Part shown: positions 15,039 to 50,446 of the stretch, piece by piece
Layout: each line of letters begins with the position of its first letter
How positions within the stretch are numbered: the stretch's first letter is position 1
Virus record (IMG/VR): IMGVR_UViG_3300042465_005697
Span: 92,280-149,690 of that record
Length of the DNA stretch: 57,411 bases
DNA from: a virus
Direction: 5' to 3' (one strand)
Program-made: the position numbers and the translations under genes
Notes under the pieces: model-generated
Database searches by the model: none
The model's input: the letters and a program-made list of their open reading frames with translations, nothing else
What the model was told of the DNA's origin: nothing

Positions 15039-15039
15039 A

Positions 15040-16101: not shown

Positions 16102-16105
16102 ATTG

Positions 16106-17760: not shown

Positions 17761-17827
17761 TTAAATTTAATTGATTGTTTATTACTATAATAATAAATTG
17801 AATTTACAAAAAGAAAATCGTTATGGT

Positions 17828-18532: not shown

Positions 18533-18537
18533 TTTTT

Positions 18538-19128: not shown

Positions 19129-19138
19129 ATTATAGATT

Positions 19139-19870: not shown

Positions 19871-19875
19871 TTATT

Positions 19876-21127: not shown

Positions 21128-21129
21128 AA

Positions 21130-22641: not shown

Positions 22642-23246
22642 ATTCCAGTACTTCCGAATCCTTTTTCTCCTCGGTCTTTATTATTTATGTTATCAACCTT
22701 TGTTAATTTGATCCATTTACCTGAAACCACAGGACTAATAACTGCTTGGGCAATTTTTTGTCCTTTGTTAATTGTAATATTATTTTTTGTCGTATTAAAT
22801 AATATAACTTGAATTTCTCCTGTATATCCTTGATCCACCGTCCCTGGAGAATTTAATACCATAAGACCTTGTTTTAACGCCAAACCACTCTTAGACCTCA
22901 CCTGTACCTCATACCCGTCAGGAATATCAATATGTAACCCCGTTGGAATTAATGATCTACCAAACGATTCTATTTCAATTTCTTCAGTTGAAAACAAATC
23001 AAACCCATAATCTGTTGGGTAAGCATATGACGGATCAATAGAATCAACGTTGGATTGAGAATACTCAACCTTCATTTTTTGTTCAAAGTTTGCCATATCT
23101 CGTTCAAGTTCGGCAACATCAACACCAAAGATATCCATTATGTTTTGGTAGTCAGGTTCTTCATCACCAAACATATCCTCAAGTTCTTGGAGATTTTCTA
23201 GTTGATTAAGTAAGTCTCCAAGATTTTCTTCTTCTTCGTTAATCAT
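22638..23246 (-). CDS. dut: dUTPase with N-terminal acidic extension
   Basis: Hydrolyses dUTP to dUMP, keeping uracil out of phage DNA and feeding dTMP synthesis. 202 residues. The five trimeric-dUTPase motifs are present in order: DYGFDLFS, VRSKSGLALKQG, VLNSPGTVDQGYTGEIQVI, KGQKIAQAVI and RGEKGFGSTG. The first ~65 residues (EEEENLGDLLNQLENLQELE and on) are an acidic, coiled extension not found in the usual ~150-residue enzyme. It overlaps the exonuclease gene by 4 bases. Confidence 0.93.
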   Translation of the reverse strand: MINEEEENLGDLLNQLENLQELEDMFGDEEPDYQNIMDIFGVDVAELERDMANFEQKMKVEYSQSNVDSIDPSYAYPTDYGFDLFSTEEIEIESFGRSLIPTGLHIDIPDGYEVQVRSKSGLALKQGLMVLNSPGTVDQGYTGEIQVILFNTTKNNITINKGQKIAQAVISPVVSGKWIKLTKVDNINNKDRGEKGFGSTGI

Positions 23247-23962
23247 TTTAATTCCTTTAATTTTTTAATAGTATCAACCAGTACCACAACATCTTTTTCG
23301 CAGTAATCTGAAATCTCTTTTAACATATTTTTATTCCAATAGTAGTCGTGAACTTTATCTCCCGTCACTTCACCATCTTTTGGTGTTGGTATATCCAAAC
23401 AAGTACACATAAGATCCAACGATCCGATAGATGTGTAAGAACCATATTGCCAAATCTCTTTGGTGTCAATTGCCTTAACTTCCCAAGGTTTTGTATCATA
23501 CGATGGTAAAAGTTTTGACGGCATAATCCCATTTATAATCATTCGTTTTGCCATCATCGGAATATCAAAATTCTTTAGGTTATGACCGCAAAGATAAAAA
23601 TCCAATTTATGGCAACGATTTAACAAATCCCTAACTTGGATTAACACTTCCTTTTCGTCATCCCCAGAGAATGTTTGTTTTTTAACATCTCCATTGTCCA
23701 TAACAAAAGCCATAGATACACAAACAATCTTTGCAAATTCAGGAACAAGAGCTGCTCTTTTAACAAAAACTTTGTTTTTCAATTCAACCTCAGATTCATC
23801 ACCAGTGTTATCCTCTGGAAATCTTTTTAAGAACCAATCAAAATACTTATCAAACTGATCGGCAATGTTTGGATTGTTTTCTTTACAGGTGTCATAATCT
23901 TTACAACCACCCACAGTTTCTACATCAAGAAACAAAATTTTTGTTATTGGTATGTTAATCAT
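23243..23962 (-). CDS. DEDD-type 3'-5' exonuclease
   Basis: 239 residues. Exo I is ILFLDVETVGG, Exo II is FYLCGHNLKNFDIPMM and Exo III is ISDYCEKDVVVLVDTI (DEDDy type, Tyr four residues before the last Asp). It resembles the stand-alone PolB-like exonuclease family. It may degrade host DNA for nucleotides or proofread. Next to dUTPase, so a nucleotide or DNA metabolism pair inside the glycan locus. Confidence 0.85.
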   Translation of the reverse strand: MINIPITKILFLDVETVGGCKDYDTCKENNPNIADQFDKYFDWFLKRFPEDNTGDESEVELKNKVFVKRAALVPEFAKIVCVSMAFVMDNGDVKKQTFSGDDEKEVLIQVRDLLNRCHKLDFYLCGHNLKNFDIPMMAKRMIINGIMPSKLLPSYDTKPWEVKAIDTKEIWQYGSYTSIGSLDLMCTCLDIPTPKDGEVTGDKVHDYYWNKNMLKEISDYCEKDVVVLVDTIKKLKELK

Positions 23963-23965
23963 TTT

Positions 23966-25102
23966 TTATTTAATTATTGATAAGTAAAATTCTTTTCTAT
24001 CTATTGTTACCTTATTAAGGTCGTAACGGTCTTTAACCGTTTCGTATAATCTTTCACCCATATCGGTAATCATATTTGGGTTATCAACCAACTTCTTAAT
24101 ATATTTTGCCCAATCACTATGGTTATTATTTTTATTAACCAATAAAGCATTACCATCAGTAAAATTACCATTATTAAGTGAATGTTTCAAATCAATCGTG
24201 TATGGTCCAACATTAGATGCAATCAATGCCTTTTTATAAAATCCTGCCTCAATAACTTTAAGTTGTGATTTCATTCTGTTAAATACGTGATCAACAATTG
24301 GTGATAAAGAAATATCAAACTTAGAGTAGTTCTTAGCATATGTTGTTGTTGGTTTTGTCCATACTCTAACATAATTTTCATTTTGCCATCCAGGATATTC
24401 ACCATCCTCAAACTTATCCAAATACTCCTTATATTTTGGTGTAACAATTTTATATTTGTCGGTAAAAATTTCTTCATACTTAACCCAAACAGTTTCTTCA
24501 GGTTTAATTGCCCGTTTTGTTTCTTGGTTTGTTTGTTTGTTAATTTCTGTTACCGTCCCTCTTGTGTCAAAACCACAAACATAATATTGTATTTTATCTT
24601 TGATTGGTGATAATTTTGAAACCATACCATCTAACAATTTTAAATCGTGTAAATGTGATGATCCACCCAACCAACCAACTCTTACTTTATCAGATGGTAA
24701 TGTTGGTTCATTAAATTGAGATTCCTTTGGGTTAATTGCGTTTGGAAATACAAAAACGTTTTTATTAAATTTTTTAATTTCAAATGCAAAAATCTCAGTT
24801 GTTGTTGTAACGTAAGATGAAACCTTAAGATTTGCAATAATTTTTTCGTGAATCTTATTATTTAAAATTAATTGTTGAATTGGGTGTTCCTTTGTTGGTA
24901 ACCAATAATCATCAATATCTGCAATAACAATTATTCCCATAGATTTAAGTTTCTCAATCAATGCGGGACATTTATCATAATCGGTTCCGATAGTTCTATG
25001 GTAATGAACAATATGGTATTGCAACCAATAATTCATATCGTCAATTCTTGGTTGATAATCTATTTCAACATGAAAATCATCAGGATATAAATTTTGTAAC
25101 AT
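23966..25102 (-). CDS. GT-B glycosyltransferase with disrupted 5' end
   Basis: 378 residues from the ATG at 25102. The Rossmann half starts abruptly (MLQNLYPDDFHVEIDYQPRI, then YHIVHYHRTIG) and the C-terminal GT-B half has VRVGWLGGSSHLHDLKLL and IEAGFYKKALIASNVGPY. A natural N-terminus is encoded just upstream in the same frame (see 25103-25195) but broken by a TGA. Translation might restart at 25102, giving an enzyme without its first beta-strand and Gly-rich loop, which may be inactive. Family call firm; activity doubtful. Confidence 0.75.
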   Translation of the reverse strand: MLQNLYPDDFHVEIDYQPRIDDMNYWLQYHIVHYHRTIGTDYDKCPALIEKLKSMGIIVIADIDDYWLPTKEHPIQQLILNNKIHEKIIANLKVSSYVTTTTEIFAFEIKKFNKNVFVFPNAINPKESQFNEPTLPSDKVRVGWLGGSSHLHDLKLLDGMVSKLSPIKDKIQYYVCGFDTRGTVTEINKQTNQETKRAIKPEETVWVKYEEIFTDKYKIVTPKYKEYLDKFEDGEYPGWQNENYVRVWTKPTTTYAKNYSKFDISLSPIVDHVFNRMKSQLKVIEAGFYKKALIASNVGPYTIDLKHSLNNGNFTDGNALLVNKNNNHSDWAKYIKKLVDNPNMITDMGERLYETVKDRYDLNKVTIDRKEFYLSIIK

Positions 25103-26229: not shown

Positions 26230-26841
26230 TTATTCTGAAACTTTACGAACTCTTAATAGTTTTCCTTCAAATATATGTTGGCCAACTCTGAATTTAAAAA
26301 CTTCATTTGATTTTTTTGTGGATTCAACTAACAGACCATTTTCTTTAAGAACGTCTTGTACTGTTTCCCTAACGATACTTCTAATATCATCTGAGGATAT
26401 TGAGACTGATGGTTGTGTTTGTTGTGGTTGTTGTGTTCTTTTTGGGACATTCTCATTAATTAAATCACCATTTGCTTTTGTATTCATTAGACGAGATGCT
26501 TTCTCAATTAGATCACTTGATAACACTGAATTATTTACCGATGAATTTGGTTGTTGTATTGGGTGTTCCATCATTAACCTTTTAATTTCATCTGGTAGTT
26601 TTGAATTTGCTATTCTATCTGCTGATGGAACTTCTGTATTCATTTTTTGTATTGGAGCCTCTGTTAGGTATTCCTGTGGTAAATTATAATTTGCCGATAC
26701 TGGTGAGAAGTCCTCAACCATTGGTGATGACATTGATTGTGATGGAATTGATTGTGATCCACCTCTACCCATTGTATCATGCTTTTGCATGATTTGTTTG
26801 GATATAATTAACTTATTTATTAAATCTTGTTCTGCTGACAT
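26230..26841 (-). CDS. Probable virion-associated protein, low complexity
   Basis: 203 residues. Rich in Gln/Pro/Ser, largely disordered, with a helix at the C-terminal third (SISSDDIRSIVRETVQDVLK) and a beta end (FKFRVGQHIFEGKLLRVRKV). The last gene of a five-gene unit before the terminator. No family recognised; a linker or scaffold-like role is possible. Confidence 0.5.
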   Translation of the reverse strand: MSAEQDLINKLIISKQIMQKHDTMGRGGSQSIPSQSMSSPMVEDFSPVSANYNLPQEYLTEAPIQKMNTEVPSADRIANSKLPDEIKRLMMEHPIQQPNSSVNNSVLSSDLIEKASRLMNTKANGDLINENVPKRTQQPQQTQPSVSISSDDIRSIVRETVQDVLKENGLLVESTKKSNEVFKFRVGQHIFEGKLLRVRKVSE

Positions 26842-26842
26842 A

Positions 26843-27250
26843 TTAAACTATATTTTGTTCTTCATTATTATCAAAGACTGCATTAACGATAACGCTATTC
26901 ATACTTTTATCCCCATTTGGGTTATACCCTTGTCTTGGTTCATTAAATGTATCTGCGGTTGGTCTAAAGGAAACAATTTTATCTACTCTAAAAAATCTCC
27001 AACTTGGTAGAGGTTTCTTACCTAAATACGCTTTATGTGAAGCTCCTTCTAAATCCCACGCTCTTAATACAGGATTACCCGCTTTACTATAACCAAAACA
27101 CACAGGTTCTATGGTTCTTAACCCATTTCCCCCAGGTTCATCACCTTGGTAATATATTACAACTTTTTGTCTTTTCTTAATTGCATCAACGATTGAGTCT
27201 ATTGATGCTACCTCAAGAATAAGTTTTTTTAAAGAGTTGTAAAGTTTCAT
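26843..27250 (-). CDS. WYL-domain-like protein with possible capsid-targeting leader
   Basis: 135 residues. The body matches the phage WYL-like family: KRQKVVIYYQGDEPGGNGLR, EPVCFGYSKAGNPVLRAWDL and WRFFRVDKIVSFRP. WYL domains bind small ligands or nucleic acid ends in bacteria; the phage role is unknown. The leader MKLYNSLKKLILEVAS is a basic amphipathic helix with I-L-E, a possible prohead-protease site, so it may be packaged in the head. It overlaps the gene at 27250 by one base. Confidence 0.65.
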   Translation of the reverse strand: MKLYNSLKKLILEVASIDSIVDAIKKRQKVVIYYQGDEPGGNGLRTIEPVCFGYSKAGNPVLRAWDLEGASHKAYLGKKPLPSWRFFRVDKIVSFRPTADTFNEPRQGYNPNGDKSMNSVIVNAVFDNNEEQNIV

Positions 27251-27537
27251 TATACTGAAGGTGTGGTATAAGGTTTATCTATTTGGAATTCATTAATTTT
27301 AATTTCATTTTTTCTTTCCAAAGTATCTACTGATGATCCACCTTTACTTGTATCCAAGAAAGATCCTGTTCCTTTACCGAACTCATCACCATCTGACATT
27401 GCATCTTTGTTTGTTGATGAATATTGGTTAACGGTTTTATAATCATTCTTTGGGATTAATTTTTGTCTTTGTTGTTCTGCGATTTGAGATAATTCATTAT
27501 CTGGTTGTGCAAAATCTAATCTTTCTGTTTGTGCCAT
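27250..27537 (-). CDS. Small hydrophilic protein of unknown function
   Basis: 95 residues, polar and predicted disordered (AQTERLDFAQPDNELSQIAE, then GTGSFLDTSKGGSSVDTLER). One nt from the next gene. No family recognised. Confidence 0.5.
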   Translation of the reverse strand: MAQTERLDFAQPDNELSQIAEQQRQKLIPKNDYKTVNQYSSTNKDAMSDGDEFGKGTGSFLDTSKGGSSVDTLERKNEIKINEFQIDKPYTTPSV

Positions 27538-27538
27538 A

Positions 27539-28006
27539 TTAAATTAATTTTTTCATTATTTCGTTTATTCTTTTAAGGCTTTCCGTGATTTTAATATCAT
27601 CATTATAACCTGAATGACTTTTGGCGTCTCTATTCATATTTGATAACCACCCCATATCATCAACCAATTGGTCGTTAATATCATCTGGCATTACATCTTT
27701 AACTTCTTGGTTTGTGTGGGTATTGTTTCTCATATGGTCAATTGTTGTTGTGATCCAATTGCTCATATAATCACCACCATTTAATATAAATGGGGCATCT
27801 TCCTTTTCTCCCTCATAATGTTTAAACCAATTCTGTATTCTTTCTAACTGTTGGAAGGTCACTTTCCCATTATCTCTTAAGAAATTATTTCTTTTGTGTC
27901 CTTCAATTGTTGCATCAGAATTTGGAACTTGATCAAAGCAATGATGTAAATGTTTAATTACTTCTTCTGGTAATTCAACAACTTGTCCGTATAATTCTTT
28001 ATTCAC
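27539..28006 (-). CDS. Phage protein of unknown function
   Basis: 155 residues, mostly helical, with His/Glu/Gln-rich N-terminus (ELPEEVIKHLHHCFDQ) and a C-terminal helix (KITESLKRINEIMKKLI). It overlaps the next upstream gene by 8 bases. No motif I know. Confidence 0.55.
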   Translation of the reverse strand: MNKELYGQVVELPEEVIKHLHHCFDQVPNSDATIEGHKRNNFLRDNGKVTFQQLERIQNWFKHYEGEKEDAPFILNGGDYMSNWITTTIDHMRNNTHTNQEVKDVMPDDINDQLVDDMGWLSNMNRDAKSHSGYNDDIKITESLKRINEIMKKLI

Positions 28007-29540: not shown

Positions 29541-31760
29541 ATGGCTCAACAGAATATTAATCAATACGTGTATCCGAAATTACGATTAAATGTCGTAAAT
29601 GAGTGTATGGATATGTCCTTGGCGTCCGATGAGGTGAATTATAATCAAGAGGTAGTTTTCTCACCATATTTGATTGCCGAAACTTTTGGGGATAGATTAC
29701 CAATAAATATAGATATTAATAACCCATTAACGGTTCAACCTTTGGATCTATTTTATAAACAATATAATTATAATAATATTTTTGTTTCTCAAAACTATTA
29801 TAACCCAGATAATTTGGATTTAACTTGTTTTTCTTCATCAACGGCTTGCGATATTGGTTTAACGGGTATTGATAATGGTTTGGTTACTTCTATGACGGGA
29901 GAGACAATTAATTTTACAAATGGATTATATTCAGATTTTTTAAAGTTTGAAAGATTATATTTTGATAGAAGATTTAAAATGTTCCAAGTAACGGGATATA
30001 CATCTCAAAATGAAAGATTTTCGGCAATACCTGACACAACATTATATGAAGTGGTTAGTACAGGAACAACTGTTGGTAGATATCACGAATTATATGGTGG
30101 GTTCTACCAAGGGTTTTATAAATTATTTGGATATGACTACAATATTTTTCCTGAACGGATGAATAAAGGTTGGGCGGTTGAGATGTTATTAAAACCAAGA
30201 TTGACTGATTATTTTTTCCCTTCATCGGGTGAAACAACTTTAAATGAAATATATCCACAAAATAAGGACATCTTCTTTTATTTTGGGGCAAGGGCTGAGA
30301 ATAAGTTTTATCATCACGCTGACGGAAATCCAAATTGTTTTACGGGATATACAAGGGTTACAAGTGGATTACAAGAATGTATTTCAACTTGTGCTTGTTG
30401 TAATAGGACTGTAACAAATAGTAGGTGTATATATGTTTATCCACCAAGATCTGTAAATAATCAACACGATCCTCATTTAAATTATGGTTGTGATATCTGT
30501 GGTGGAACTACGGGTAAGACAATGACTTGTGGGTGTGATTGTAATGAACAACCTTGTGAGACTTGTGGGTGGGAATGTTTTACACATACTTGTGGATCAA
30601 TAATAGAACCAACACCAACACCGGTTCCAACACCTGAACCAACACCAACTTGTGATACTTTAACTCCTGTTTGTACTCCAACCGTTTGTGTTACTTGTAC
30701 GGGGTGTACTGAATGTATTGATTGCCCATCAACAGGGTTTACATCGGTTGAGAATACTTGTGAGACGGATCCATTACTTGATTCAATGTCAAATGCTTTG
30801 GCAATAAAATTATGTGGGGATCATAACAATCCACAGATTGGTGTTAAAGTTTTAAGATGGACTGGTGAATGTAAAACAACGGGATCTTGTGTAACGGGTC
30901 AAACTTATGTTACCGGATATACTATTGATGAATATTGTTCTCCTCCGATATACCCTTATTGCTTATTAAAAAATCCTCCGTATTTGGATTTGGAACATTG
31001 GTTTCAAGTTGATGTGGTATGGGAAAGATATACTTGGTTGGATATTTGTGATTTATGGTGGAGAGGTGGTCTTGGAGATATTACCAAAACGGAATATTTG
31101 GATTCTCTTGCAAACAATACAATGGCGTTAATTAAACCTCCGATCACTAATGGTAAGGAAGTTGCCGAAACGATTGATTTAGTTAATTTGGATCAGTCTT
31201 GGTTGGATGATGTTAATTTTAGAATGGGTAGATTAAAAATTTATGTTAATGGAAAGATACATTATACAATAGAAAATTTTGAGGAGATTATACCTAGAGC
31301 GTTAAGTACGGATAAGGAAAAACAATTGGGTGTTCCATTTAATATATCTTGGGGTGGTGGAACTCAGGGTCTTCGTGAGAATTTAACATTCTCTGCTTGT
31401 TCTGCAACCACGGGTCAATATATCCAAGATCCTGAATCATTTCCAAATAATGTGTTAAGTGGATCATCATTATCGGGACTTAGTACCAACATTTTAATAG
31501 AACAGAATTTTGCCGGAACATTTGAAGGTGGTATATCACAATTTAGAATGTATATAACTCCGTTATCGGCACCTGAAGTTAAACATAATTTTCTTTTATT
31601 AAAAGAAAAATTTAATATGTTTAACCCTGATTGTCCTGATTGTAGTACGACAATATGTCTTCCTAACGACTTCACGTATGTTTTGGTTGATCTTAATTTT
31701 TTAATAACTCAACAAAATTTCTACATAATGACACAAAATTATGTGAATTTAGTTGCATAA
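29541..31760 (+). CDS. Large Cys-rich virion protein
   Basis: 739 residues. Residues ~265-410 hold over 25 Cys in CxxC-like pairs (CISTCACCNRTVTNSRC, CGCDCNEQPCETCGWEC) that may bind metal or form disulfides, followed by a PTPTPVPTPEPTPT linker at about residue 360. A LamG/concanavalin-like region is suggested by WFQVDVVWERY, RMGRLKIYVNGKIHYTIENF and GGISQFRMYITPLSAPEV. Predicted as a tail or head decoration protein; located just ahead of the large fibre. Exact role unknown. Confidence 0.65.
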   Translation: MAQQNINQYVYPKLRLNVVNECMDMSLASDEVNYNQEVVFSPYLIAETFGDRLPINIDINNPLTVQPLDLFYKQYNYNNIFVSQNYYNPDNLDLTCFSSSTACDIGLTGIDNGLVTSMTGETINFTNGLYSDFLKFERLYFDRRFKMFQVTGYTSQNERFSAIPDTTLYEVVSTGTTVGRYHELYGGFYQGFYKLFGYDYNIFPERMNKGWAVEMLLKPRLTDYFFPSSGETTLNEIYPQNKDIFFYFGARAENKFYHHADGNPNCFTGYTRVTSGLQECISTCACCNRTVTNSRCIYVYPPRSVNNQHDPHLNYGCDICGGTTGKTMTCGCDCNEQPCETCGWECFTHTCGSIIEPTPTPVPTPEPTPTCDTLTPVCTPTVCVTCTGCTECIDCPSTGFTSVENTCETDPLLDSMSNALAIKLCGDHNNPQIGVKVLRWTGECKTTGSCVTGQTYVTGYTIDEYCSPPIYPYCLLKNPPYLDLEHWFQVDVVWERYTWLDICDLWWRGGLGDITKTEYLDSLANNTMALIKPPITNGKEVAETIDLVNLDQSWLDDVNFRMGRLKIYVNGKIHYTIENFEEIIPRALSTDKEKQLGVPFNISWGGGTQGLRENLTFSACSATTGQYIQDPESFPNNVLSGSSLSGLSTNILIEQNFAGTFEGGISQFRMYITPLSAPEVKHNFLLLKEKFNMFNPDCPDCSTTICLPNDFTYVLVDLNFLITQQNFYIMTQNYVNLVA

Positions 31761-31795: not shown

Positions 31796-34700
31796 ATGTC
31801 AGACGTTAGAATAACCGACTTACCATTAATTTTATCAGGAGATATTAGATCAAATAATGTTCTACCAATTGTAGATGTTGATAATGATATCACAGATAGA
31901 ATTACATTAGACCAACTTAGAACTTATGTTAATAGTGGTGAAACATTTTTATATGAAGTGGGTTCAGGAACTAGCTCAACTCAAAGAGTTGGAGTTAGTG
32001 GATCCGCAATTGGTGATTATTCTATAGTTGCTGGAGGTTCAGGAAACACCGCTTTATCGTCAGGATCAACAATTGGTGGTGGATTTTTTAATACGATTTC
32101 ATCGTGTAGTGGTTATTATGGTAATGGTGGAGGATCGTCAGTCATAGGTGGTGGATTTTGTAATACCGCAGATTCTAACATAACAACAATTGGTGGTGGT
32201 TGGTGCAATACCATTACATCATCAGGTTATGACTCAACAATTTCTGGAGGTAGATGTAATACTGCCAATTGTGGTACATCAACAATTGGTGGGGGATATT
32301 GTAACACATCAACTTGTTATGATACATTTATCGGTGGTGGTGGAGATAACGTTGCTGGTGGTAATGGGTCTGTTGTTACAGGTGGCGAACAGAATACTTC
32401 GTTATCTGATAGTTCAACAGTAAGTGGTGGTCGTTATAATACGATTGGAACTTTATCGGGCGATTATGATATTCTAGGACAAACTATTGGTGGGGGTTCT
32501 TGTAACACAATATCATCTTATAGTGGATATTACACACTTGGTGGTAGCACAATTAGTGGTGGATATTGTAATACAACGGTTTCATCATATAGGGGAGGTC
32601 AAACAATTGCTGGGGGATGGTGTAATGTAACGTCAAGTGATTATGCAACTGTAAGTGGTGGTTATAGAAATACAAATTCATCTGACTACGGATCAATAGG
32701 TGGTGGTGCAAACAACACAATATTAACAAATTCTGACTATTCTACAATTGGTGGTGGTGACGACAACACAATACTTCCAAATAGTGAGGTAGGAACAATA
32801 TCAGGTGGCGAAAATAATACACTTAGTGGTGATTACTCAACTATTAGTGGGGGATATTATAACAAAATATTTGGAGATTATTCAACCGTAAGTGGTGGAT
32901 ATTGTAACACATCAAATAGTAATTGTTCAACTATAAGTGGTGGTTATTGTAATATGGCGGGTGTTAGAGGAACGATAAGTGGGAATTATAACCAAACATA
33001 TTCTGGTGGAACGTTTAATGGTAATTATGGTTCATATTCTCCAACCTCAACATCATCAGGTTATGGTAATGGAGGAACATTCTCCTTTAATTTTAATACT
33101 GGAACATTGTCTAACGTTTATGTTACCTCAATTGGTCAAGGTTATGTTCAAGGAGATACCTTATTATTTGATGGTACTTTATTTGGTGGAACAAGTGGTA
33201 CTGATAATGTAACAATTCAAATTAACGTTACATCAATTGGTAATAATTCTAGTATAGGTGGTGGATATCGTAACACGTCAAGTGGGTGTAGTTCAACCGT
33301 AAGTGGTGGTAGAAATAACACATCAAGTGGTGGAAGGTCAACTGTAAGTGGTGGATATCTTAACACATCAAGTTGTTATGATTCAACCGTAAGTGGAGGT
33401 TATAGAAATAAATCAATTGGTGGTAGTTCAACCATAAGTGGGGGTTATAGTAACACATCAATTGGTGGTAGTTCAACCATAAGTGGAGGTTATAGAAATA
33501 CATCATTTGGTAATATTTCAACCGTAAGTGGAGGTTATAGAAACGTGTCAGGATTAATCGGAATGATAGATTCAATTTATGACCAAACATATTCTGGAGG
33601 AACGTTTAATGGTAATTATGGTTCATATTCTCCAACCTCAACATCGTCAGGTTATGGTAATGGAGGAACATTCTCTTTTTATTTTAACTCGGGAACATTA
33701 TCTAACATCTATCTAAATTCAAAGGGTCAAAATTATGTTCAAGGGGATACCTTATTATTTGATGGGACTTTATTTGGTGGAACAAGTGGTACTGATAATG
33801 TGACAATTCAAATTAATGTAGAGTTAGGTGGTAATTATTCAACGGTAAGTGGGGGATATCGTAATACATCAAGTGGTTATGCATCAACCGTAAGTGGCGG
33901 ATATTGTAACACATCAAGTTCTTACCAATCAACGGTAGGTGGAGGTTATAGAAACACAATTAACCAATTCTCAACTTGTTCTGGAAAATATATTATTGCC
34001 GGTAACACAGTTGGTGGTGGAAATAATAACTTAATTAATTCAAATAGCGCATATTATGGAGATGCTGGTGGTGTAACAATTAATGGTGGTTACCTTAATA
34101 GAACAAACTCAGGTTATTACGGATTTAACACAATCGGTGGTGGTGTAGGTCATGACGCAAACCTTGAATACTCAACAGTAAATGGTGGGGCTTTTAACTC
34201 ATCAACACAATCATTTACAACAGTAGGTGGTGGAGTTTTTAATACTAACTCATCATATGTTTCCACAATTAGTGGTGGTTATAATAATACCATTGGAACT
34301 TTATCTTCTTACTATGATCTTATTGGTCAAACTATTGGTGGGGGTTCTTGTAATACAATGTCATCTTATAGTGGAAAATACGCAAATGGTGGATCAACAA
34401 TAAGTGGTGGGTATTGTAACACAACACTTTCTTCTTATTATGGTGGATCAACAATTGGTGGGGGATGGAATAATTTAACATCAAGTAATTATTCAACCGT
34501 AAGTGGTGGTGTGTTTAACACATCAAGTGGGTGTCATTCAACCGTAGGAGGTGGGGCATCTAATACATCAAGTTGTTATAATTCAACAATAAGTGGTGGT
34601 AGAAGTAACACATCAAGTGGTGGAAGTTCAACTGTAAGTGGTGGATATGGTAACTCATCAAATAGTGATTATTCAACTATAGGTGGAGGATATCGTAACA

Positions 34701-35554
34701 CATCAAGTGGTCATTCTTCTTTAATTGGTGGAGGATGTTATAACATCACTGAAAACCAATTAGACACAATTGGTGGTGGTGGAAAAAATACAACAATACT
34801 AAGTGGTGGTGTTGTAGGTGCGGCAACCATAAGTGGTGGATATAAAAACACATCCGGAAACTATTATACATTTAATGGTAGTGGATGTAATAATATTGTA
34901 TTAGGTGAGTATTCGTCAATAGTTGGTGGTCAAAACAACCTAAACATTTCAGGTTTAGTACAACAAGTTTCGTTTAATTCGGGTGATGCTTCTGCAATAT
35001 CAGATAACACATATTCGGTTTATCCAACAAATGTTGGTGGTTATGGTTCTGGTTTACAAATTACATTTGATGTAAATACTGGAGTTGTAAGTAATGTTAA
35101 TGTTGTAAATGTTGGTATAAGATATGAACAAGGACAACAAGTTTTAGTTTCTGGAAACACTATTGGTGGTTTATCTCCGGCAAATGATTTATATTTTGAT
35201 CTAAACTCTGTAATTGACGGTAATTATTCTTTTATTGGTGGTGGTTTAAATAATACAACAAGTGGTTGTTATTCTTTTATTGGAGGTGGTAGAAATAACA
35301 CATCAAGTGGTTATCTTTCAACGGTAAGTGGTGGTAGATTTAACACATCAATTGGAATTTATTCAAGTGTTTTAGGTGGATCTGGAAATACGTTAACAAA
35401 CGATTCTTCCTTTATTGTTGGTGATAGTATAATATCAAATAGAGTTTGTTCAACGTTTGTTAATAATTTATCAATTATGAATATACCAACAAGTTCCGCA
35501 GGATTACCAACAGGTTCAGTTTATAGTGACTCTTGTGTTTTGAAGATTGTTTAA
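31796..35554 (+). CDS. Giant beta-roll tail fibre with trimeric-autotransporter-like repeats
   Basis: 1252 residues. The N-terminus (MSDVRITDLPLI, RSNNVLPIVDVDNDITDRIT) is a phage fibre attachment module. From about residue 65 to 1215 it is a run of ~14-16-residue units of the form STVSGG-YxNTSSG, as in YadA/Hep_Hag trimeric autotransporter heads, which fold as a left-handed beta-roll. Two nearly identical ~80-residue inserts interrupt it (from residue ~400 and ~597), plus a decayed third near 1065. The end (IPTSSAGLPTGSVYSDSCVL) matches tail-fibre tips. Very rich in Ser/Thr/Asn, hence a good glycan or sulfate acceptor. The adjacent glycosyltransferases fit that role. Confidence 0.85.
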   Translation: MSDVRITDLPLILSGDIRSNNVLPIVDVDNDITDRITLDQLRTYVNSGETFLYEVGSGTSSTQRVGVSGSAIGDYSIVAGGSGNTALSSGSTIGGGFFNTISSCSGYYGNGGGSSVIGGGFCNTADSNITTIGGGWCNTITSSGYDSTISGGRCNTANCGTSTIGGGYCNTSTCYDTFIGGGGDNVAGGNGSVVTGGEQNTSLSDSSTVSGGRYNTIGTLSGDYDILGQTIGGGSCNTISSYSGYYTLGGSTISGGYCNTTVSSYRGGQTIAGGWCNVTSSDYATVSGGYRNTNSSDYGSIGGGANNTILTNSDYSTIGGGDDNTILPNSEVGTISGGENNTLSGDYSTISGGYYNKIFGDYSTVSGGYCNTSNSNCSTISGGYCNMAGVRGTISGNYNQTYSGGTFNGNYGSYSPTSTSSGYGNGGTFSFNFNTGTLSNVYVTSIGQGYVQGDTLLFDGTLFGGTSGTDNVTIQINVTSIGNNSSIGGGYRNTSSGCSSTVSGGRNNTSSGGRSTVSGGYLNTSSCYDSTVSGGYRNKSIGGSSTISGGYSNTSIGGSSTISGGYRNTSFGNISTVSGGYRNVSGLIGMIDSIYDQTYSGGTFNGNYGSYSPTSTSSGYGNGGTFSFYFNSGTLSNIYLNSKGQNYVQGDTLLFDGTLFGGTSGTDNVTIQINVELGGNYSTVSGGYRNTSSGYASTVSGGYCNTSSSYQSTVGGGYRNTINQFSTCSGKYIIAGNTVGGGNNNLINSNSAYYGDAGGVTINGGYLNRTNSGYYGFNTIGGGVGHDANLEYSTVNGGAFNSSTQSFTTVGGGVFNTNSSYVSTISGGYNNTIGTLSSYYDLIGQTIGGGSCNTMSSYSGKYANGGSTISGGYCNTTLSSYYGGSTIGGGWNNLTSSNYSTVSGGVFNTSSGCHSTVGGGASNTSSCYNSTISGGRSNTSSGGSSTVSGGYGNSSNSDYSTIGGGYRNTSSGHSSLIGGGCYNITENQLDTIGGGGKNTTILSGGVVGAATISGGYKNTSGNYYTFNGSGCNNIVLGEYSSIVGGQNNLNISGLVQQVSFNSGDASAISDNTYSVYPTNVGGYGSGLQITFDVNTGVVSNVNVVNVGIRYEQGQQVLVSGNTIGGLSPANDLYFDLNSVIDGNYSFIGGGLNNTTSGCYSFIGGGRNNTSSGYLSTVSGGRFNTSIGIYSSVLGGSGNTLTNDSSFIVGDSIISNRVCSTFVNNLSIMNIPTSSAGLPTGSVYSDSCVLKIV
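32991..33229 (+). repeat. Direct repeat, copy A, inside the fibre gene
   Basis: About 240-bp direct repeat, matched at 33582-33820 with a constant offset of 591 bases. It encodes the YSGGTFNGNYGSYSPTSTSS module up to GTLFGGTSGTDNVTIQINV; ends are nearly identical and the middle differs. Confidence 0.85.
33582..33820 (+). repeat. Direct repeat, copy B, inside the fibre gene
   Basis: Second copy of the 240-bp module. Recombination with copy A would delete or duplicate 591 bases (197 codons) in frame, changing fibre length. Confidence 0.85.
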
Positions 35555-35566
35555 TATATTCTTATC

Positions 35567-36028
35567 ATGAGAAGAAATGTAAAATACGACGGTAATAATG
35601 AATTACGTAAAAAAATAATTGAGTTTTGGGTTAGTGAGAACGCAATTAACTTAGAAGAATCTGAACGTAGAGTTGATGATGTAATCTTTGTTGAGTTTTA
35701 TAATGATGAGATTATTGGTTTATGTTCTGGAATCCAAATGAATGTTCCTGAGTTATCCGGCAATTTTTTATATTACCGAACATACACCTCCACAAAATGG
35801 AGAAATCTTAAAATAGCACAAGGATTATTTAACGAGACGTATAATTTATTAAACAATTCTGAAACAAATTTATCGGGAATATATGTGGTATTTGAAAGTC
35901 CGATCTTGAATGAGTTCAATAAAAAATATGTTCTTAAGGATTATTCTAACTTAACATTAATTAAAATTAACGAACAAGGTCAACAAGTTAGAGTGTCGTA
36001 TTTTGATAATAAAACCATCACACAATAA
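35567..36028 (+). CDS. GNAT-like protein
   Basis: 153 residues. Pattern of an N-acetyltransferase fold: VIFVEFYNDEIIGLCSG as strands with the conserved Gly, then NFLYYRTYTSTKWRNLKIAQ as the acetyl-CoA loop (R-x-x-x-I-A), then GLFNETYNLL. It follows the fibre gene by 12 nt, so a fibre-modifying or fibre-assembly role is possible. Moderate confidence. Confidence 0.45.
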   Translation: MRRNVKYDGNNELRKKIIEFWVSENAINLEESERRVDDVIFVEFYNDEIIGLCSGIQMNVPELSGNFLYYRTYTSTKWRNLKIAQGLFNETYNLLNNSETNLSGIYVVFESPILNEFNKKYVLKDYSNLTLIKINEQGQQVRVSYFDNKTITQ

Positions 36029-36073
36029 GTTCGTCTTAATTCACTTTAATAAATATCTTAATATATTTCAAAT

Positions 36074-36820
36074 ATGTTTGTAACTGTTTGTAATAAAGAA
36101 TATCTTATTGGGTTTGAGGTGATGTTAAAATCATTAATTGATAATAACCCAAGGGTTGTAAATGAAAATATACCATTCATAATTATAAGTAATGATATTA
36201 GTGAGGACGATTTGTTTGTTAGCAAACAAATCCATAACAATATTGACATTAAAAATTTCAATCAAACAAAATATTATGAGATTGATGAGTTAAAGAAGAT
36301 TAAAATGGCATTTGGGGATTACACCAAATATGAAATATTCTCAATTCAAGACACAAATAAAATCATATTTTTAGATTCCGACACTTTAATTTTAGGGAAT
36401 ATTGATTACCTCATAGACTTTAAAGAAGACTTTGGTGCGGTAAGAGAATTATATATTGACCAACATAATACGGGTGTTATGGTTATTGGGAAAAAATATC
36501 TAAACAAACAAATTACAAATGATTTAATAAATCTTACGCAAAGATACGGAATTACAGAACATTTAGATCAAGATATAATTAATAATTATTTTACAGATGT
36601 TATTACAGATATCCCAATCTCATACAATTATTTAAAAATATATTCAAAACAAATATTCCAAAACACCGGATTACCAAACCATATTAAGATTTTACATTTT
36701 ATTGTTAAAAAACCTTGGCAAAACAAACCATTAGTTTTATTGGAAGAAGGGACATTATGGCAAGAAAGATATTGGTTTGAATACCATTCAAAAATATTAA
36801 AATTAAATTATAATGGTTAA
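36074..36820 (+). CDS. GT8-like glycosyltransferase
   Basis: 248 residues. GT-A of the glycogenin/GT8 sort: VCNKEYLIGFEVMLKSLI, KIIFLDSDTLILGNIDYLI (D-x-D), HNTGVMVIGKKYL, HLDQDIINNYF and a His-containing end (IKILHFIVKKPWQNK). It overlaps the next gene by 8 bases, so the two enzymes are co-produced. Predicted to start or extend a glycan, likely on fibre proteins. Confidence 0.8.
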   Translation: MFVTVCNKEYLIGFEVMLKSLIDNNPRVVNENIPFIIISNDISEDDLFVSKQIHNNIDIKNFNQTKYYEIDELKKIKMAFGDYTKYEIFSIQDTNKIIFLDSDTLILGNIDYLIDFKEDFGAVRELYIDQHNTGVMVIGKKYLNKQITNDLINLTQRYGITEHLDQDIINNYFTDVITDIPISYNYLKIYSKQIFQNTGLPNHIKILHFIVKKPWQNKPLVLLEEGTLWQERYWFEYHSKILKLNYNG

Positions 36821-37730
36821 ACGTCATTACGATCAAAGTGAGTTGTTGGATTATGTTGAGTTGGATCCAAAGACAAAAACATTAGTTGATAAAACAATAT
36901 TACTTCATTTTGATTCTTTTTGTTTGGGTGATACAATTTGTTTTGCATCATTAATAGACCCATTTATTAATTTCCACAAACCAAAAAAAGTTTTAATCTC
37001 AACATTTTTTCCCCATCTTTTAGTATCAACAAATTTAAGTTATGAATTTATTAATGCAAACCAAAAGAAAAGGATTGTTGTGGATAAACTTATTAATGTT
37101 GGTTATGATAAGGGTAGTTTATCTCATACGTTAGGTGGAATGTTTTATGCTGCAAAGGAAAAGTTAATGATACCCCAGGACACAAAACCTGTTAAACCAC
37201 CAATGATATTAAAATTTAGGAACCCAAAACCTAATAAAATAACAATTGGTCCTGAATCATTAAAAGATATTGCCAAATGGACAAAGGATGGTTGGCAATC
37301 GGTTGTTAATAAATTGGTTGAACATAAATACGATGTTTATAATGTATCCTATGAAAATACGATGAACTTACAAAATGTAACACCAATTCACGGAAATGAT
37401 GATATTAATATTTCAATAGACCATATTTTAGATTCAAAATTTTTTATTGGATTATCTTCAGGTCTTGCTTGGGTTGCATGGGCATATGGTGTTCCCGTTG
37501 TTATGATCTCAGGATTTACAAAAGACCATAACGAATTTGATTGTTTTAGGGTTAGAAACCATAATGTTTGTAATGGATGTTTTAATGTGGTGCAAAACAT
37601 AAAAACAAAATGCCCAATATTCTTGGGAACAAATCGTGAGAACGAATGTCATAAGACAATAACACCTGATATGGTTATTGACCAAATTAATAATGTAATC
37701 AAGTTTACAAACAACGAATATAAACTATAA
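36813..37730 (+). CDS. TibC/BAHT-like autotransporter heptosyltransferase homologue
   Basis: 305 residues. The C-terminal half follows the autotransporter O-heptosyltransferase pattern: FFIGLSSGLAWVAWAYGVPV, VVMISGFTKDHNEFDCFRVR, NHNVCNGCFNVVQNI and NECHKTITPDMVIDQINN. Four Cys (C-x2-C, C-x10-C, C-x11-C) sit where TibC binds iron. N-terminal Rossmann region: ILLHFDSFCLGDTICFAS. In bacteria this family adds heptose to Ser residues of autotransporter beta-rolls. Here it is three genes after a beta-roll fibre. Family call strong; target inferred. Confidence 0.85.
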   Translation: MVKRHYDQSELLDYVELDPKTKTLVDKTILLHFDSFCLGDTICFASLIDPFINFHKPKKVLISTFFPHLLVSTNLSYEFINANQKKRIVVDKLINVGYDKGSLSHTLGGMFYAAKEKLMIPQDTKPVKPPMILKFRNPKPNKITIGPESLKDIAKWTKDGWQSVVNKLVEHKYDVYNVSYENTMNLQNVTPIHGNDDINISIDHILDSKFFIGLSSGLAWVAWAYGVPVVMISGFTKDHNEFDCFRVRNHNVCNGCFNVVQNIKTKCPIFLGTNRENECHKTITPDMVIDQINNVIKFTNNEYKL

Positions 37731-38627: not shown

Positions 38628-39446
38628 ATGGTACAAAAGATATTCTTTCAAAGTTCCCTACCAAGAGCGGGATCAACATTACTACAAAATGTTATGGGGC
38701 AAAATCCTGACTTCTATGTAACCCCAACATCGGGTGTTTTAGAGTTGGTGTATGCCGCAAGAAACAATTATACAAATTCACCCGAATTTAAAGCCCAAGA
38801 CACAGAGTTAATGAAAGACGGGTTCCTTTCTTTTTGTAAGAATGGGATGGAAGGGTTTTTTAATGGTGTAACAGATAAACCTTATGTTATAGACAAAAGT
38901 AGAGGTTGGGGTGTTCATTATGGGTTTTTAAATTCATTCTACCCAAACCCTAAGATCATTTGTATGGTTAGAGATTTAAGAGGTGTTTTTGCTTCAATGG
39001 AAAAAAACTTCAGAAAAAATCAACATATGGATTCAGGTTTGGTAAATCACGCAACTATGGTTGGTACCACAACAGAAAAGAGAATTGATACTTGGGCTCA
39101 AAGTCAGCCCGTTGGTATGGCAATTGAGAGATTACAACAAATGTTTAAGGAGGGTGTTGATAAAAAAGTGTTGTTTGTTAAGTTTGAAGATTTTACTTCC
39201 AACCCGGCAAGTGAGATGAGAAGAATTTATGAATATTTGGAACTTCCTTATTTTGAACACGACTTTAATAATGTTGAACAGATGACTAAAGAAGATGATA
39301 GTGTTTATGGTATCTATGGTGATCACAAGATAAAAAACAAAATAGAACCATTAAGAAATGATTTTAACGATGTTTTGGGTGTTAATGCTAGTAACTGGAT
39401 TAAAACAAACTATAAATGGTATTACGATCAATTTTTATATTTTTAA
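38628..39446 (+). CDS. Sulfotransferase
   Basis: 272 residues. Transfers sulfate from PAPS. The 5'-phosphosulfate loop is SSLPRAGSTLLQNVMG (residues 9-24) and the 3'-phosphate site is CMVRDLRGVFASMEK (about residues 112-126). The general shape is that of the Sulfotransfer family (PF13469/PF00685). It follows the heptosyltransferase by one nt and precedes APS kinase by 3 nt, so donor synthesis and use are in one unit. Acceptor unknown; fibre glycans or host sugars are candidates. Confidence 0.88.
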   Translation: MVQKIFFQSSLPRAGSTLLQNVMGQNPDFYVTPTSGVLELVYAARNNYTNSPEFKAQDTELMKDGFLSFCKNGMEGFFNGVTDKPYVIDKSRGWGVHYGFLNSFYPNPKIICMVRDLRGVFASMEKNFRKNQHMDSGLVNHATMVGTTTEKRIDTWAQSQPVGMAIERLQQMFKEGVDKKVLFVKFEDFTSNPASEMRRIYEYLELPYFEHDFNNVEQMTKEDDSVYGIYGDHKIKNKIEPLRNDFNDVLGVNASNWIKTNYKWYYDQFLYF

Positions 39447-39449
39447 TTT

Positions 39450-39890
39450 ATGATTTATTGGCTTACGGGACAACCGTCCCACGGAAAAACAGTTTTAGGT
39501 GAAATGATGAAAAATCATCTTGAGAAAACACAAGAACAACCATACAGAATTGATGGTGATGATCTTAGAGATTTATTTACAAACAAAGATTATTCTATGA
39601 AAGGTAGGGTAACAAATGTGGATGCCGCTCAGAAGATTGCACATTATTTACATAACCAAGGATATACTGTAATCGTAACTTTGGTTTCACCTTATTTAGA
39701 TCAACGAGAAGAGTTTAAACAAATGCTCGGTGAAGGTATTAAGGAAATTTATATTCATTGCAATGAACCAAGAGAGAGAGATGATTTTGCGGTTGCAGGT
39801 TATCAACCACCACAAAAAAACTTTATTGATATTGATACAACAAACGATACTCCAGAAGAATCATTAAAACTAATATTAAAAAATATATGA
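39450..39890 (+). CDS. cysC: Adenylylsulfate (APS) kinase
   Basis: 146 residues, shorter than the ~190-200 of bacterial CysC. Walker A is LTGQPSHGKTVLGEMM (residues 5-20), the nucleotide/APS-site RIDGDDLRDLFTN (33-45), and VTLVSPYLDQREEFKQML the family motif; a typical SPY...R pattern. It phosphorylates APS to PAPS, the donor for the sulfotransferase just upstream. It ends in TGA overlapping the next ATG (ATGA), so translation is coupled. Confidence 0.9.
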   Translation: MIYWLTGQPSHGKTVLGEMMKNHLEKTQEQPYRIDGDDLRDLFTNKDYSMKGRVTNVDAAQKIAHYLHNQGYTVIVTLVSPYLDQREEFKQMLGEGIKEIYIHCNEPRERDDFAVAGYQPPQKNFIDIDTTNDTPEESLKLILKNI

Positions 39891-40351
39891 ATTGGGAAGT
39901 AAAAAATCACGGTGGAGAACCAACAAATAATTCGGATAAAAAATATGCAATCTTTATTGGGAGATATCAACCACCACATTTTGGGCATTTAAATCTTATA
40001 GATCAAAAATTAAATGAAGGTATACCGGCACTTATTATGGTTAGAGATATTGCTCCTGACGATAAAAATCCTTTTACCACAGAACAAACAGTTTCTATGT
40101 TAGAGAAATATTATCATTCAAAGAATAAAGATGTTAAGGTTATGGTTATTCCTGATATTGAGTCCGTTAATTATGGTAGAGGTGTTGGTTATGAAATAAA
40201 TGAATTTACTCCACCAGACAATATCGGGTTTATTTCTGCAACAAAGGTTAGAGAATCAATAAAAAATGGTGAAGATGGGTGGAGAACTATGATTGATGAT
40301 TCCATTCAAGACGATGTAATTAAATATTTATCATATGAAATCACAAAGTAA
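39887..40351 (+). CDS. HxGH-type nucleotidylyltransferase, possible APS-forming enzyme
   Basis: 154 residues. Nucleotidyltransferase motifs: FIGRYQPPHFGHLNLI (HFGH at residues 31-34) and ISATKVRESIKNGEDGW (about 116-132), which parallels the ISGTxLR...G..W segment of ATP sulfurylase as well as cytidylyl/adenylyltransferases. It lies directly after APS kinase and shares ATGA overlap. The most economical reading is that it makes APS from ATP and sulfate, but it could activate another small molecule; no direct proof here. Confidence 0.7.
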   Translation: MNWEVKNHGGEPTNNSDKKYAIFIGRYQPPHFGHLNLIDQKLNEGIPALIMVRDIAPDDKNPFTTEQTVSMLEKYYHSKNKDVKVMVIPDIESVNYGRGVGYEINEFTPPDNIGFISATKVRESIKNGEDGWRTMIDDSIQDDVIKYLSYEITK

Positions 40352-40804: not shown

Positions 40805-41614
40805 ATGGATCAAACAATTACAATTCAAAGCATAAATTATTCTGGTGAAAGTGCCGAAATAATTTTTAATCCTGATAATGACCCAATTGTCATTAATTTA
40901 AGTGCTCATACGTTACCTTATTTTTTTGATTCTTCATTATTAACTCCACCGAGAGAAATTTATGGGACTTATAGTATTTTGGTTGATAATTGCACATACT
41001 TTCTTAACGTCCCAAGGTTAACACCAACACCTACACCGACGAGAACTCCAACGAGAACTCCAACACCAACTCCAACGCCAACAGTCACACCGACACCAAC
41101 GTTTGATCCGTGTAAGGTTCCGACACCAACACCAACGGTAACAAATACGCCAACAGTTACGCCAACACCAACATCTACGCCAGCACCAAGTTGTACTGAC
41201 CCTTGTTTCTGTGTAACAAAAACGCCAACACCGACACCAACACTTACACCAACAAATACTCCAACACCAACAACTTTCCCGGATAGTCCTGGGATTTATT
41301 ATGGTAAGTTTAATAATACCACAATAACAAGTGCGGACACAGGATCTTTGACGTTTATTTATACTAATAACCCACAAGATAGTTATGTAACATTTAATGT
41401 AGGTTTAGGGTATGGTTACATTCTTATCCCAACATATATACCACAACCAACAGGTTTTAGAAATAGTACCTTTGGTTGTTCAGGGTTTGTGATACCAACA
41501 AATAATATTGGGACGGTAGTTATAGTAGATGCGAATGGTATATTAATAACATATAACATATATAGAACATTTAATACTTTCGGAGGTCAAACCGATAGTT
41601 GGATGTGTAGTTAA
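40805..41614 (+). CDS. Virion protein with long Pro-Thr linkers
   Basis: 269 residues. Beta N-terminus (residues 1-75), then three Pro-Thr tracts ([19 protein letters not shown] and similar) broken by Cys-containing spacers ([23 protein letters not shown]), and a beta C-terminal domain of ~100 residues. PT linkers act as extended, rigid spacers in fibres and adhesins. Probably displays the end domain from the virion. The PT coding strand makes an antisense frame that is not real. Confidence 0.65.
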
Positions 41615-41628
41615 AAAAATAAAGAATT

Positions 41629-43743
41629 ATGATGAGTTTTAGTCTTTCAGGGGGAGTTGAAGTTTTCGGGTTTATATCACCATCGGAACCAACAGATACA
41701 TATCCAGTTATAGATCCAATTTATGGTATTGACGGTTTAAGAAACGTGGATACGATTTTAGATTTAGATAATATACCTGATTTACGAAGACGTGCGGGTA
41801 TGGTTGTGGGGGTTAGTGGTGGAACCGAATATTACAAATTAAATCCTTCTCCGTGGAATTTTGATTTTACCGATTGGTCTGTGTTTAACTCTAGTAGTGA
41901 TTACTTACCGTTATCGGGAGGTACAGTTACGGGTTCAACAATTTTTACCCAAGGACTAACCGCAAATACAATATCGGCAACAACATATGATAATTTACCC
42001 ATTACAGGGGCAACAAGTGTAGGAACGGGACTTACAATCTTTGATAGTGTTGTTGATAGAACAATACAAATAAATACCATTACCGGTGATGATTTAGGTA
42101 AAATACTTGCAACCACAACAAACAATACCATACAAGTAGGTATTAATGAAGAAAATTTAGATTTATGGCCATTAGTCGTTCAAGGAAATAGATTGTTAAG
42201 TGGTGGTGTATCATATGTTAGTGGGTTAACATTTAGTGTTAGTCCAGTCCAATATATTATTGATGGATCAATTTATACCATACAATCACCTACAACAGTT
42301 GTATTAAATTCTGGTGACACTCTATACGATAGAATTGACGTTATTGTTGCTGACATTAGTGGTAATACGATAGTCGTCCAAGGAATCCCTTCAACAAACC
42401 CTGAAAAACCAGACATAGATGAATCTATTGAGGTTGAGGTTACTTTTGTAATTGTAAGGGCAAATAGTGTGACCGCAGATATTGATGGGTTTATAATTTA
42501 TAATGAAAATTTGGGGTCTCCAGCTGAATGGAATTTTGGTGTTGGGGGAACCCAATCGGCAAGAATAATTGGATCATCAACAGGAAATACATATAGTGGA
42601 ACAACATCAATTAGGGTTAGTGGAGTAACTGCATCAAACTATAATACATATTTTAGATTGACGGGAAATACGTCTGTAGATACCAATAACTATGCAACCT
42701 TACAATTCGCACTTAAAAATTTATCAGTAAACACTATTCAAAATAGGATTAGAATAAGATTTTTAACAACAGGTGGAACACAAAACGGTAGTGTGGTTTA
42801 TATGAATGCCGCAGGAACTTCAGGGTATGTACAATATAGTAGTACTAACACATCAACTTGGCAACTTATATCAATACCATTATGGAGATTTTATTTAACA
42901 AACACTAATGTTCAAGTTGTTGAAATAGCGTTTTACCCATTAAATGGAAGTGTTACCTCAAATTATTATTTTGACCTTATTGAGTTTGTTGAAGGTACCT
43001 CATCATCACCACCATCAAATTCGTGGACAAAAATTAAGGGGGATAGTGCCACAACAATAATTGCACCCAACCCAAATGCGACGTTAACAATTTCAGGTGG
43101 AACAAATATTAGTTCATCAATATCTGGATCATCTACCGTTGTATTAAATTTGGATAATAACATTTTACTTAATAGTGTTAGTGCAACAACAATAAGTGGG
43201 GGAACATTTTATGGAAACGGAGCATTATTAACAGGATCAGGACAAAATATTGTAACCATAATTGGTTCGGGTTCGACCTTACCATTATTTACAATACAAG
43301 GATCTAGTGGTGAATTATTTAGCGTTACCGATAGTTTAACGGGATCTTTATTTAGTGTTAATGATATTTCAGGACTCCCAATACTTGAGGTGTTTTCAGA
43401 TAATACAACATTAATGGGTGATTATTTATCACCGTCTTTAAACACAACAAAAAGAGTTAGTGCGGGAATAGGAACAACCGCAATCTATTCTATACCTATT
43501 AGTGCCTACACAGGTGCGTTTTTTGACTATACGGTTAGTGACGGGACAAATTTAAGGTCTGGAAACATTATGTCCATATTTAATAACTTAACAATAAATT
43601 ATAAAGAGGACTCAACAACAGATATTGGTAACACAAGTGGTATAACATTTAATATGATAATAAGTGGTGGGACATCGGCAGTATTGCAAACATCAGGAAC
43701 AACTGCTGGGTGGACAGTAAAAACAATAGTAAGAAGTATATAA
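41629..43743 (+). CDS. Tail fibre/adhesin with TSG-rich beta repeats
   Basis: 704 residues (second codon also ATG). Residues 85-140 have DYLPLSGGTVTGSTIFTQGL and YDNLPITGATSVGTGLTIFD, the fibre repeat also seen in other tail fibres. Residues ~300-470 look like a carbohydrate-binding jelly roll (IRVSGVTASNYNTYFRLTGN, YYFDLIEFVEG). The end is beta-rich. One of a row of adhesins on the plus strand; stop spaced 1 nt from the LamG gene. Confidence 0.7.
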   Translation: MMSFSLSGGVEVFGFISPSEPTDTYPVIDPIYGIDGLRNVDTILDLDNIPDLRRRAGMVVGVSGGTEYYKLNPSPWNFDFTDWSVFNSSSDYLPLSGGTVTGSTIFTQGLTANTISATTYDNLPITGATSVGTGLTIFDSVVDRTIQINTITGDDLGKILATTTNNTIQVGINEENLDLWPLVVQGNRLLSGGVSYVSGLTFSVSPVQYIIDGSIYTIQSPTTVVLNSGDTLYDRIDVIVADISGNTIVVQGIPSTNPEKPDIDESIEVEVTFVIVRANSVTADIDGFIIYNENLGSPAEWNFGVGGTQSARIIGSSTGNTYSGTTSIRVSGVTASNYNTYFRLTGNTSVDTNNYATLQFALKNLSVNTIQNRIRIRFLTTGGTQNGSVVYMNAAGTSGYVQYSSTNTSTWQLISIPLWRFYLTNTNVQVVEIAFYPLNGSVTSNYYFDLIEFVEGTSSSPPSNSWTKIKGDSATTIIAPNPNATLTISGGTNISSSISGSSTVVLNLDNNILLNSVSATTISGGTFYGNGALLTGSGQNIVTIIGSGSTLPLFTIQGSSGELFSVTDSLTGSLFSVNDISGLPILEVFSDNTTLMGDYLSPSLNTTKRVSAGIGTTAIYSIPISAYTGAFFDYTVSDGTNLRSGNIMSIFNNLTINYKEDSTTDIGNTSGITFNMIISGGTSAVLQTSGTTAGWTVKTIVRSI

Positions 43744-50444: not shown

Positions 50445-50446
50445 GT

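Follow-up and report, generated by a model that had tools for sequence, protein, structure and literature searches.

The window analysed here, a stretch of 57,411 nucleotides, is part of a 149,690-base IMG/VR virus record whose genes for portal, terminase and head maturation protease are of the T4 type; the window itself encodes a major head protein. On its + strand lie, in this order, genes for a beta-roll tail fibre, a GNAT-like protein, a GT8 glycosyltransferase, a 305-aa ORF, a possible GT9-like protein, a sulfotransferase, an APS kinase and a nucleotidyltransferase (Table). The 305-aa ORF is thus the third gene downstream of the fibre gene, as the first-pass annotation of this DNA had noted.

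Table. Features of the fibre locus, with positions in the window and the matches on which each assignment is based.
Feature	Position	Strand	Basis
Tail fibre, 1252 aa	31796..35554	+	ORF, repeat layout, UspA1 profile match
GNAT-like acetyltransferase (weak)	35567..36028	+	Pfam Acetyltransf_1 E=0.095
GT8 glycosyltransferase	36074..36820	+	Pfam Glyco_transf_8 E=1e-18; PDB matches Skp1 galactosyltransferase, glycogenin
Barrel-less TibC/BAHT-like glycosyltransferase, 305 aa	36813..37730	+	TIGR04414, 4rap, AF2/Foldseek, tree
Asp40, equivalent of TibC catalytic base Asp-110	36930..36932	+	invariant in short, fused and bacterial sequences
Iron-finger Cys253, Cys256, Cys267, Cys279	37569..37649	+	aligned to TibC Cys-339/342/358/370
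Possible GT9-like protein, 295 aa	37739..38626	+	TIGR02193 E=0.039; phrog_8954 (PHROG of unknown function) E=2.2e-7
Sulfotransferase	38628..39446	+	Pfam Sulfotransfer_3 E=9.8e-23
APS kinase-like protein (would supply PAPS)	39450..39890	+	Pfam APS_kinase E=2.8e-18
NMNAT-like nucleotidyltransferase, paired with APS kinase	39887..40351	+	Pfam CTP_transf_like E=2.8e-7

The fibre begins with a phage anchor (about residues 1-75) and ends with a C-terminal cap. Between them, a beta-roll repeat of 15 residues recurs about 50 times (residues ~77-1205), interrupted by three insert domains of ~80 residues each (~405-484, 602-681 and 1055-1143). The repeat follows the pattern xT[VI]xGGxxNTxSGxx, with 23 of 53 spacings equal to 15; the autocorrelation at lag 15 is 0.26, as compared with 0.11 on average. 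The fibre family profile matched the UspA1 head of Moraxella catarrhalis (PDB 3PR7, UspA1_rep) in register with E=1.8e-42, a match that carries a strong composition bias (44 bits for the best stretch). Fibre homologues matched Pfam UspA1_rep / LbR_Ice_bind, and that of locus L029 the PHROG tail fibre phrog_5073 (E=9.5e-48). With UspA1 and other trimeric-autotransporter beta-rolls the fibre shares the repeat pattern STIGGGxxN, but it has a phage anchor and cap and lacks a secretion or membrane domain. An AlphaFold2 model of a fibre fragment, computed as a single chain, was all-beta at medium confidence (pLDDT 69) and had no significant structural match, so that the proposed likeness to a trimeric-autotransporter head was borne out by sequence and not by the model. 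At another locus, two beta-roll fibre genes flank an ORF (L021:5595-7040) that contains a GDSGS-like serine protease motif.

The 305-aa protein matched the NCBIfam model TIGR04414 (hepto_Aah_TibC) with E=1e-31, from profile position 80 onwards only, and as a single sequence it matched the structure of TibC (PDB 4rap) with E=1.2e-14; a profile of 43 relatives matched 4rap over nearly its whole length with E=7e-113. In a Foldseek search with the AlphaFold2 model of the enzyme (pLDDT 90.1), TibC was the best match (E=6.8e-19, TM 0.77), and WaaF/WaaC followed with E ~1e-8 and TM ~0.55. Residues were compared in 42 sequences, comprising 21 short phage enzymes of the type found in the window, 12 fused phage forms and 9 bacterial enzymes. 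The four iron-finger Cys proved invariant in all three groups (21/21, 12/12 and 9/9), the finger loop being ~5 residues shorter in the short clade, and so did the equivalent of Asp-110, the catalytic base of TibC (PMC4358343). In common with TibC/AAH (BAHT; PDB 4RAP, 4RB4), the phage enzyme further has the GT-B core, the equivalent of Trp-305, kept in 21/21 short enzymes, and a Ser at the position of AAH Ser-294. The protein had been annotated as a homologue of the enzymes that glycosylate autotransporters, including their four-Cys site, and this was confirmed: judged by profile, predicted fold and tree, it is a true relative of TibC/AAH.

The differences are equally consistent. The N-terminal beta-barrel (TibC residues 1-97) is missing from all 21 short enzymes, which have only 27 residues before the core, and the loop that in TibC forms the beta-hairpin thumb, used in assembly of the dodecamer, is ~8-10 residues shorter, with no equivalent of Phe-265/Val-266 in the alignments. 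The position of TibC Lys-230 is occupied by Ala/Ser and that of Arg-286 by Ser/Ala/Val in 21/21 short enzymes, that of Thr-226 by Leu/Ile in 20/21, and a new invariant Lys151 is present. In TibC itself, deletion of the barrel abolishes activity, and mutations in the thumb or replacement of Lys-230 or Arg-286 by Ala abolish or strongly reduce it (PMC4358343). Moreover, the enzyme of the window scored 108 bits with TIGR04414, below the family cut-off of 200 bits, as compared with 108-127 bits for the other short enzymes, 244-305 for the fused phage forms and 317-650 for the bacterial enzymes. Because the barrel and thumb are missing, the donor contacts are replaced and the score falls below the cut-off, the enzyme is kin to the BAHTs but not a BAHT as the family is defined.

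A pattern scan found relatives of the enzyme encoded at 534 viral loci, and the best 79 of these were retrieved for comparison. Two forms occur. At 28 loci the enzyme is a free-standing protein of ~300 residues; in the other form it makes up the C-terminus of a larger protein whose barrel region is intact and which, in the examples analysed, also carries GT4 and sometimes methyltransferase parts. Loci L033-L083 encode such fusions of ~700-1500 aa (GT4, with or without methyltransferase, then barrel and TibC-like domain), usually adjoining long SGTSGSSG-repeat fibres. The fusions, exemplified by L035, L040, Microcystis phage Mel-JY01 (WWT39291.1) and the huge phage LR756501, share with the short enzyme the clade, the iron finger and the adjoining repetitive phage fibres; they differ from it in keeping the barrel and Lys-230, in exceeding the TIGR04414 cut-off where scored, and in lying mostly beside SGT-repeat fibres. 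One record (L010, G086:C1) holds both a fused and a short enzyme, at 11965-12975 and 26832-27653, ~14 kb apart.

In a tree of 61 rows, GT9 rows included, the short form is a single clade (100/100), sister to most fused phage forms (98/92), and both forms sit inside a clade of phages plus Bacteroidota (99/90); bacterial BAHTs encoded near true targets fall outside it. All TibC-like rows split from the GT9 rows at 100/100. The first outcome that the first-pass annotation had named as refuting its proposal, a grouping with LPS heptosyltransferases without the Cys motif, therefore did not arise: by Foldseek and tree the protein belongs to the TibC lineage and does not group with LPS heptosyltransferases, and it keeps the Cys motif. 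Since the short form is nested among phage forms, it probably arose inside phages through domain loss.

Neighbourhoods were then compared between loci. A beta-roll fibre was detected beside the short enzyme at 23 of its 28 loci, most of which belong to related phages and are not independent, versus 0 of 33 random viral loci, which had a smaller mean length and were taken without matching for phage type (Fisher p=3e-12). Contig ends truncate two of the five exceptions (L019 and L020); the others (L006/L007/L032) are copies of one phage with a different, Asn/Gly-repeat fibre at the equivalent place. The linkage is kept in the diverged loci L028, L029 and L030, where enzyme identity is 43-54% and most other neighbours differ; in L029, which is GC-rich and whose fibre has different ends, a beta-roll fibre still lies near the enzyme. 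At 40 of 45 loci with a fused enzyme, the adjoining fibre is either a beta-roll or built of Ser/Gly/Thr (SGT) repeats; neither kind was found at the 33 random loci. The two enzyme forms differ in their partners (p=1e-9): beta-roll fibres accompany the short form, and SGT-repeat fibres most of the fused forms. A query with the whole fibre found one locus, since its search patterns avoid repeats, and a DNA pattern for the repeat was used instead. In the reverse test, the enzyme was found in 10 of 50 beta-roll records versus 0 of 34 random records (p=0.005), in all ten within 7.4 kb of the beta-roll although the records are 70-318 kb long. As no enzyme was detected in the other 40 beta-roll records, the fibre does not need the enzyme, with the caveat that these records are fragments, and the linkage is one-directional. 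The partnership of enzyme and fibre is real as synteny and conserved across diverged phages. Of the earlier proposal that a phage adopted an autotransporter partnership, this conserved linkage stands; the idea that an autotransporter and its enzyme were taken over together straight from a bacterium was abandoned, because the short enzymes group within phage sequences (98/92 with the fused phage forms).

Other genes of the cluster recur to different extents. The GT8-like gene, which had been listed as flanking the enzyme, is solidly assigned; a homologue lies near the short enzyme in 25 of 28 loci, and in the window its ORF overlaps the 305-aa ORF by 8 bp, so that the two are likely to be translationally coupled. 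A gene at the place of the listed GT9-like flank is indeed present; it likewise occurs at 25 of the 28 loci with a short enzyme, and some phages with fused enzymes have it too, but its identity as GT9 is weak, with no PDB match even for a 17-sequence profile. The GNAT-like gene was seen, among the surveyed loci, only in the phage of the window and its sister phage L005. The sulfotransferase is found in 18 of 28 short-enzyme loci, the diverged L029 among them. Together with the APS kinase and the NMNAT-like protein it forms a trio (38628-40351 in the window) that recurs across many phage loci, with 31, 22 and 23 homologues found, respectively. The NMNAT-like protein matched a PDB NMNAT structure with its family profile (E=1.3e-10) and, because it and the APS kinase match separate parts of phrog_10255, it might be a compact ATP sulfurylase.

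UspA1-type heads are not known to be substrates of BAHTs. The known substrates are beta-helices of the AIDA-I/TibA type (PMC4358343), and the earlier description of BAHTs as glycosylating autotransporter beta-rolls, which would be of the UspA1/YadA type, had to be corrected. The strand-loop-strand repeat that marks BAHT targets (TIGR04415) was found in 5/5 bacterial BAHT genomes and in 0/13 phage records; the phage enzyme has a tail fibre as its partner instead. With that repeat absent from the phage records and the known targets being beta-helices, the phage pair appears to be an analogue of the autotransporter partnership and not a copy of it. Within the fibre repeats, Ser was more frequent at one position in short-enzyme phages (p=0.003), but the deep members L029 and L030 have Ala where other fibres have Ser; this difference reads as lineage, and no Ser acceptor signature in the repeats consistently tracks the enzyme.

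The replacement of Lys-230 and Arg-286 in 21/21 short enzymes and of Thr-226 in 20/21 suggests that the donor may be other than ADP-heptose. One phage record, G087 (L417:5432-6952), encodes a full-length homologue of the ADP-heptose synthase HldE (E=1.9e-65) and holds one of the most diverged short enzymes. HldE in this record favours ADP-heptose, and the altered donor pocket speaks against it. In the record of the window and most relatives, no match to rfaE domain II or SIS_2 was found, HldE being confined to G087. Short nucleotidyltransferases of G090 and G041 were rejected as ADP-heptose genes, since glycerol-3-phosphate and heptose-phosphate transferase models match them about equally.

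From its sequence, the 305-aa enzyme is best read as belonging, in shortened form, to a branch of iron-finger (TibC/AAH-like) protein O-glycosyltransferases that is specific to phages. In the cytoplasm, TibC-type enzymes modify Ser of a repetitive protein; the iron finger of TibC helps to bind the protein substrate (PMC4358343). Because the constant partner of the phage enzyme is a repetitive fibre, O-glycosylation of that fibre is the most economical explanation and, on these sequence comparisons, the enzyme likely glycosylates it. We lean moderately towards the fuller reading of the locus as a fibre-decoration module of a T4-like aquatic phage, in which the 305-aa enzyme decorates the adjoining fibre. 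For such a module we infer which protein and residue accept the sugar, what that sugar is, how the steps follow one another and what the phage gains, along the following lines. The enzyme would place a first sugar on Ser of the beta-roll fibre encoded upstream, in the cytoplasm and ahead of virion assembly; the GT8 protein, and perhaps the GT9-like protein too, would extend this sugar, and the sulfotransferase, fed by the APS kinase, would sulfate the glycan. The decoration could serve for shielding, stability or tuning of adhesion. It is also conceivable, if rather doubtful, that a viral iron-finger branch has shed the barrel along with the dodecamer contacts and heptose-binding residues, has changed to another donor and, together with GT8 and sulfotransferase, builds a sulfated glycan on beta-roll fibres, which would then be glycoproteins.

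An unlikely alternative is that the glycosyltransferases, including the TibC-like one, alter the LPS or O-chain of the host, for superinfection exclusion or receptor masking, and that the fibre is adjacent only because both belong to a host-recognition island. Glycosyltransferases near tail fibres of aquatic T4-like phages have been inferred to modify the host O-chain, and the GT8-rich host-recognition clusters of pelagimyophages, which combine tail fibres with YadA-/collagen-type proteins and rfaE, are read in this way (excerpts of PMC7029224). These clusters share tail fibres and GT8-type glycosyltransferases with the present locus, but in the same excerpts no iron-finger enzyme was found described. 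LPS is also a common target of the GT8 and GT9 families, and the window has further glycosyltransferase genes outside the cluster, e.g. at 23966-25102. Against this, the enzyme belongs to a protein-modifying lineage far from the LPS heptosyltransferases, the iron finger is always retained, and the linkage is specific, the short form going with one type of repetitive fibre and the fused forms mostly with another. It is less probable still that the enzyme acts on another phage protein, such as another fibre, capsid or neck protein, and that the beta-roll fibre is a mere neighbour. Structural-looking repetitive genes do lie within 10 kb (29541-31760, 40805-41614 and 41629-43743), and many fused enzymes pair with SGT-repeat fibres instead; in the diverged L029 and L030, however, the beta-roll fibre is a shared neighbour while most others change. 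Glycosylation of phage DNA or nucleotides, a known role for phage glycosyltransferases (cited in PMC12619734), is highly improbable for this module, as we found nothing to relate the 305-aa enzyme to DNA glycosyltransferases and its best matches among solved structures are TibC and then LPS heptosyltransferases.

Among open-licence papers, we found none that links the TibC enzyme family with phages. Glycans are carried by virion proteins of mycobacteriophages (Freeman et al. 2023, cited in PMC12619734), where they reside on the C-termini of capsid and tail-tube proteins and not on repetitive fibres. What the present locus adds is a partnership of genes that is conserved between phages, together with a shortened branch that is new within a known enzyme family. 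If fibre glycosylation holds true, many large aquatic phages would glycosylate their own adhesion fibres with dedicated enzymes, in parallel to glycosylated bacterial adhesins, and the binding of fibres to receptors, their stability and the host range of these phages would have to be read differently. It would also offer a natural minimal enzyme of the TibC family that does its work in the absence of the barrel and probably also of the dodecamer. Furthermore, it would help to assign functions to some of the glycosyltransferases, sulfotransferases and APS kinases whose presence near phage fibres is otherwise unexplained.

Two further features of this phage were observed. At least 28 different ORFs, in L405-L409 (G000:C1:1-92400) and at 3820-4506 of the window, have an N-terminal leader peptide of one of three shared types (MK.LIR.IL.EE, MKIIITE.Q and D..EK.RILEMH), most of them with [I/L]-x-E. 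Because a head maturation protease of the T4 type is also encoded (L409:9409-10134), the leaders may serve to target numerous internal or injected proteins to the capsid. Furthermore, ORFs that resemble glycosyltransferases by sequence lie at 14235-25102 (- strand) and 47595-52126 (+ strand) of the window, and the one at 23966-25102 was confirmed as a glycosyltransferase (PHROG phrog_7162, E=2e-44); the phage is thus rich in sugar-transfer genes.
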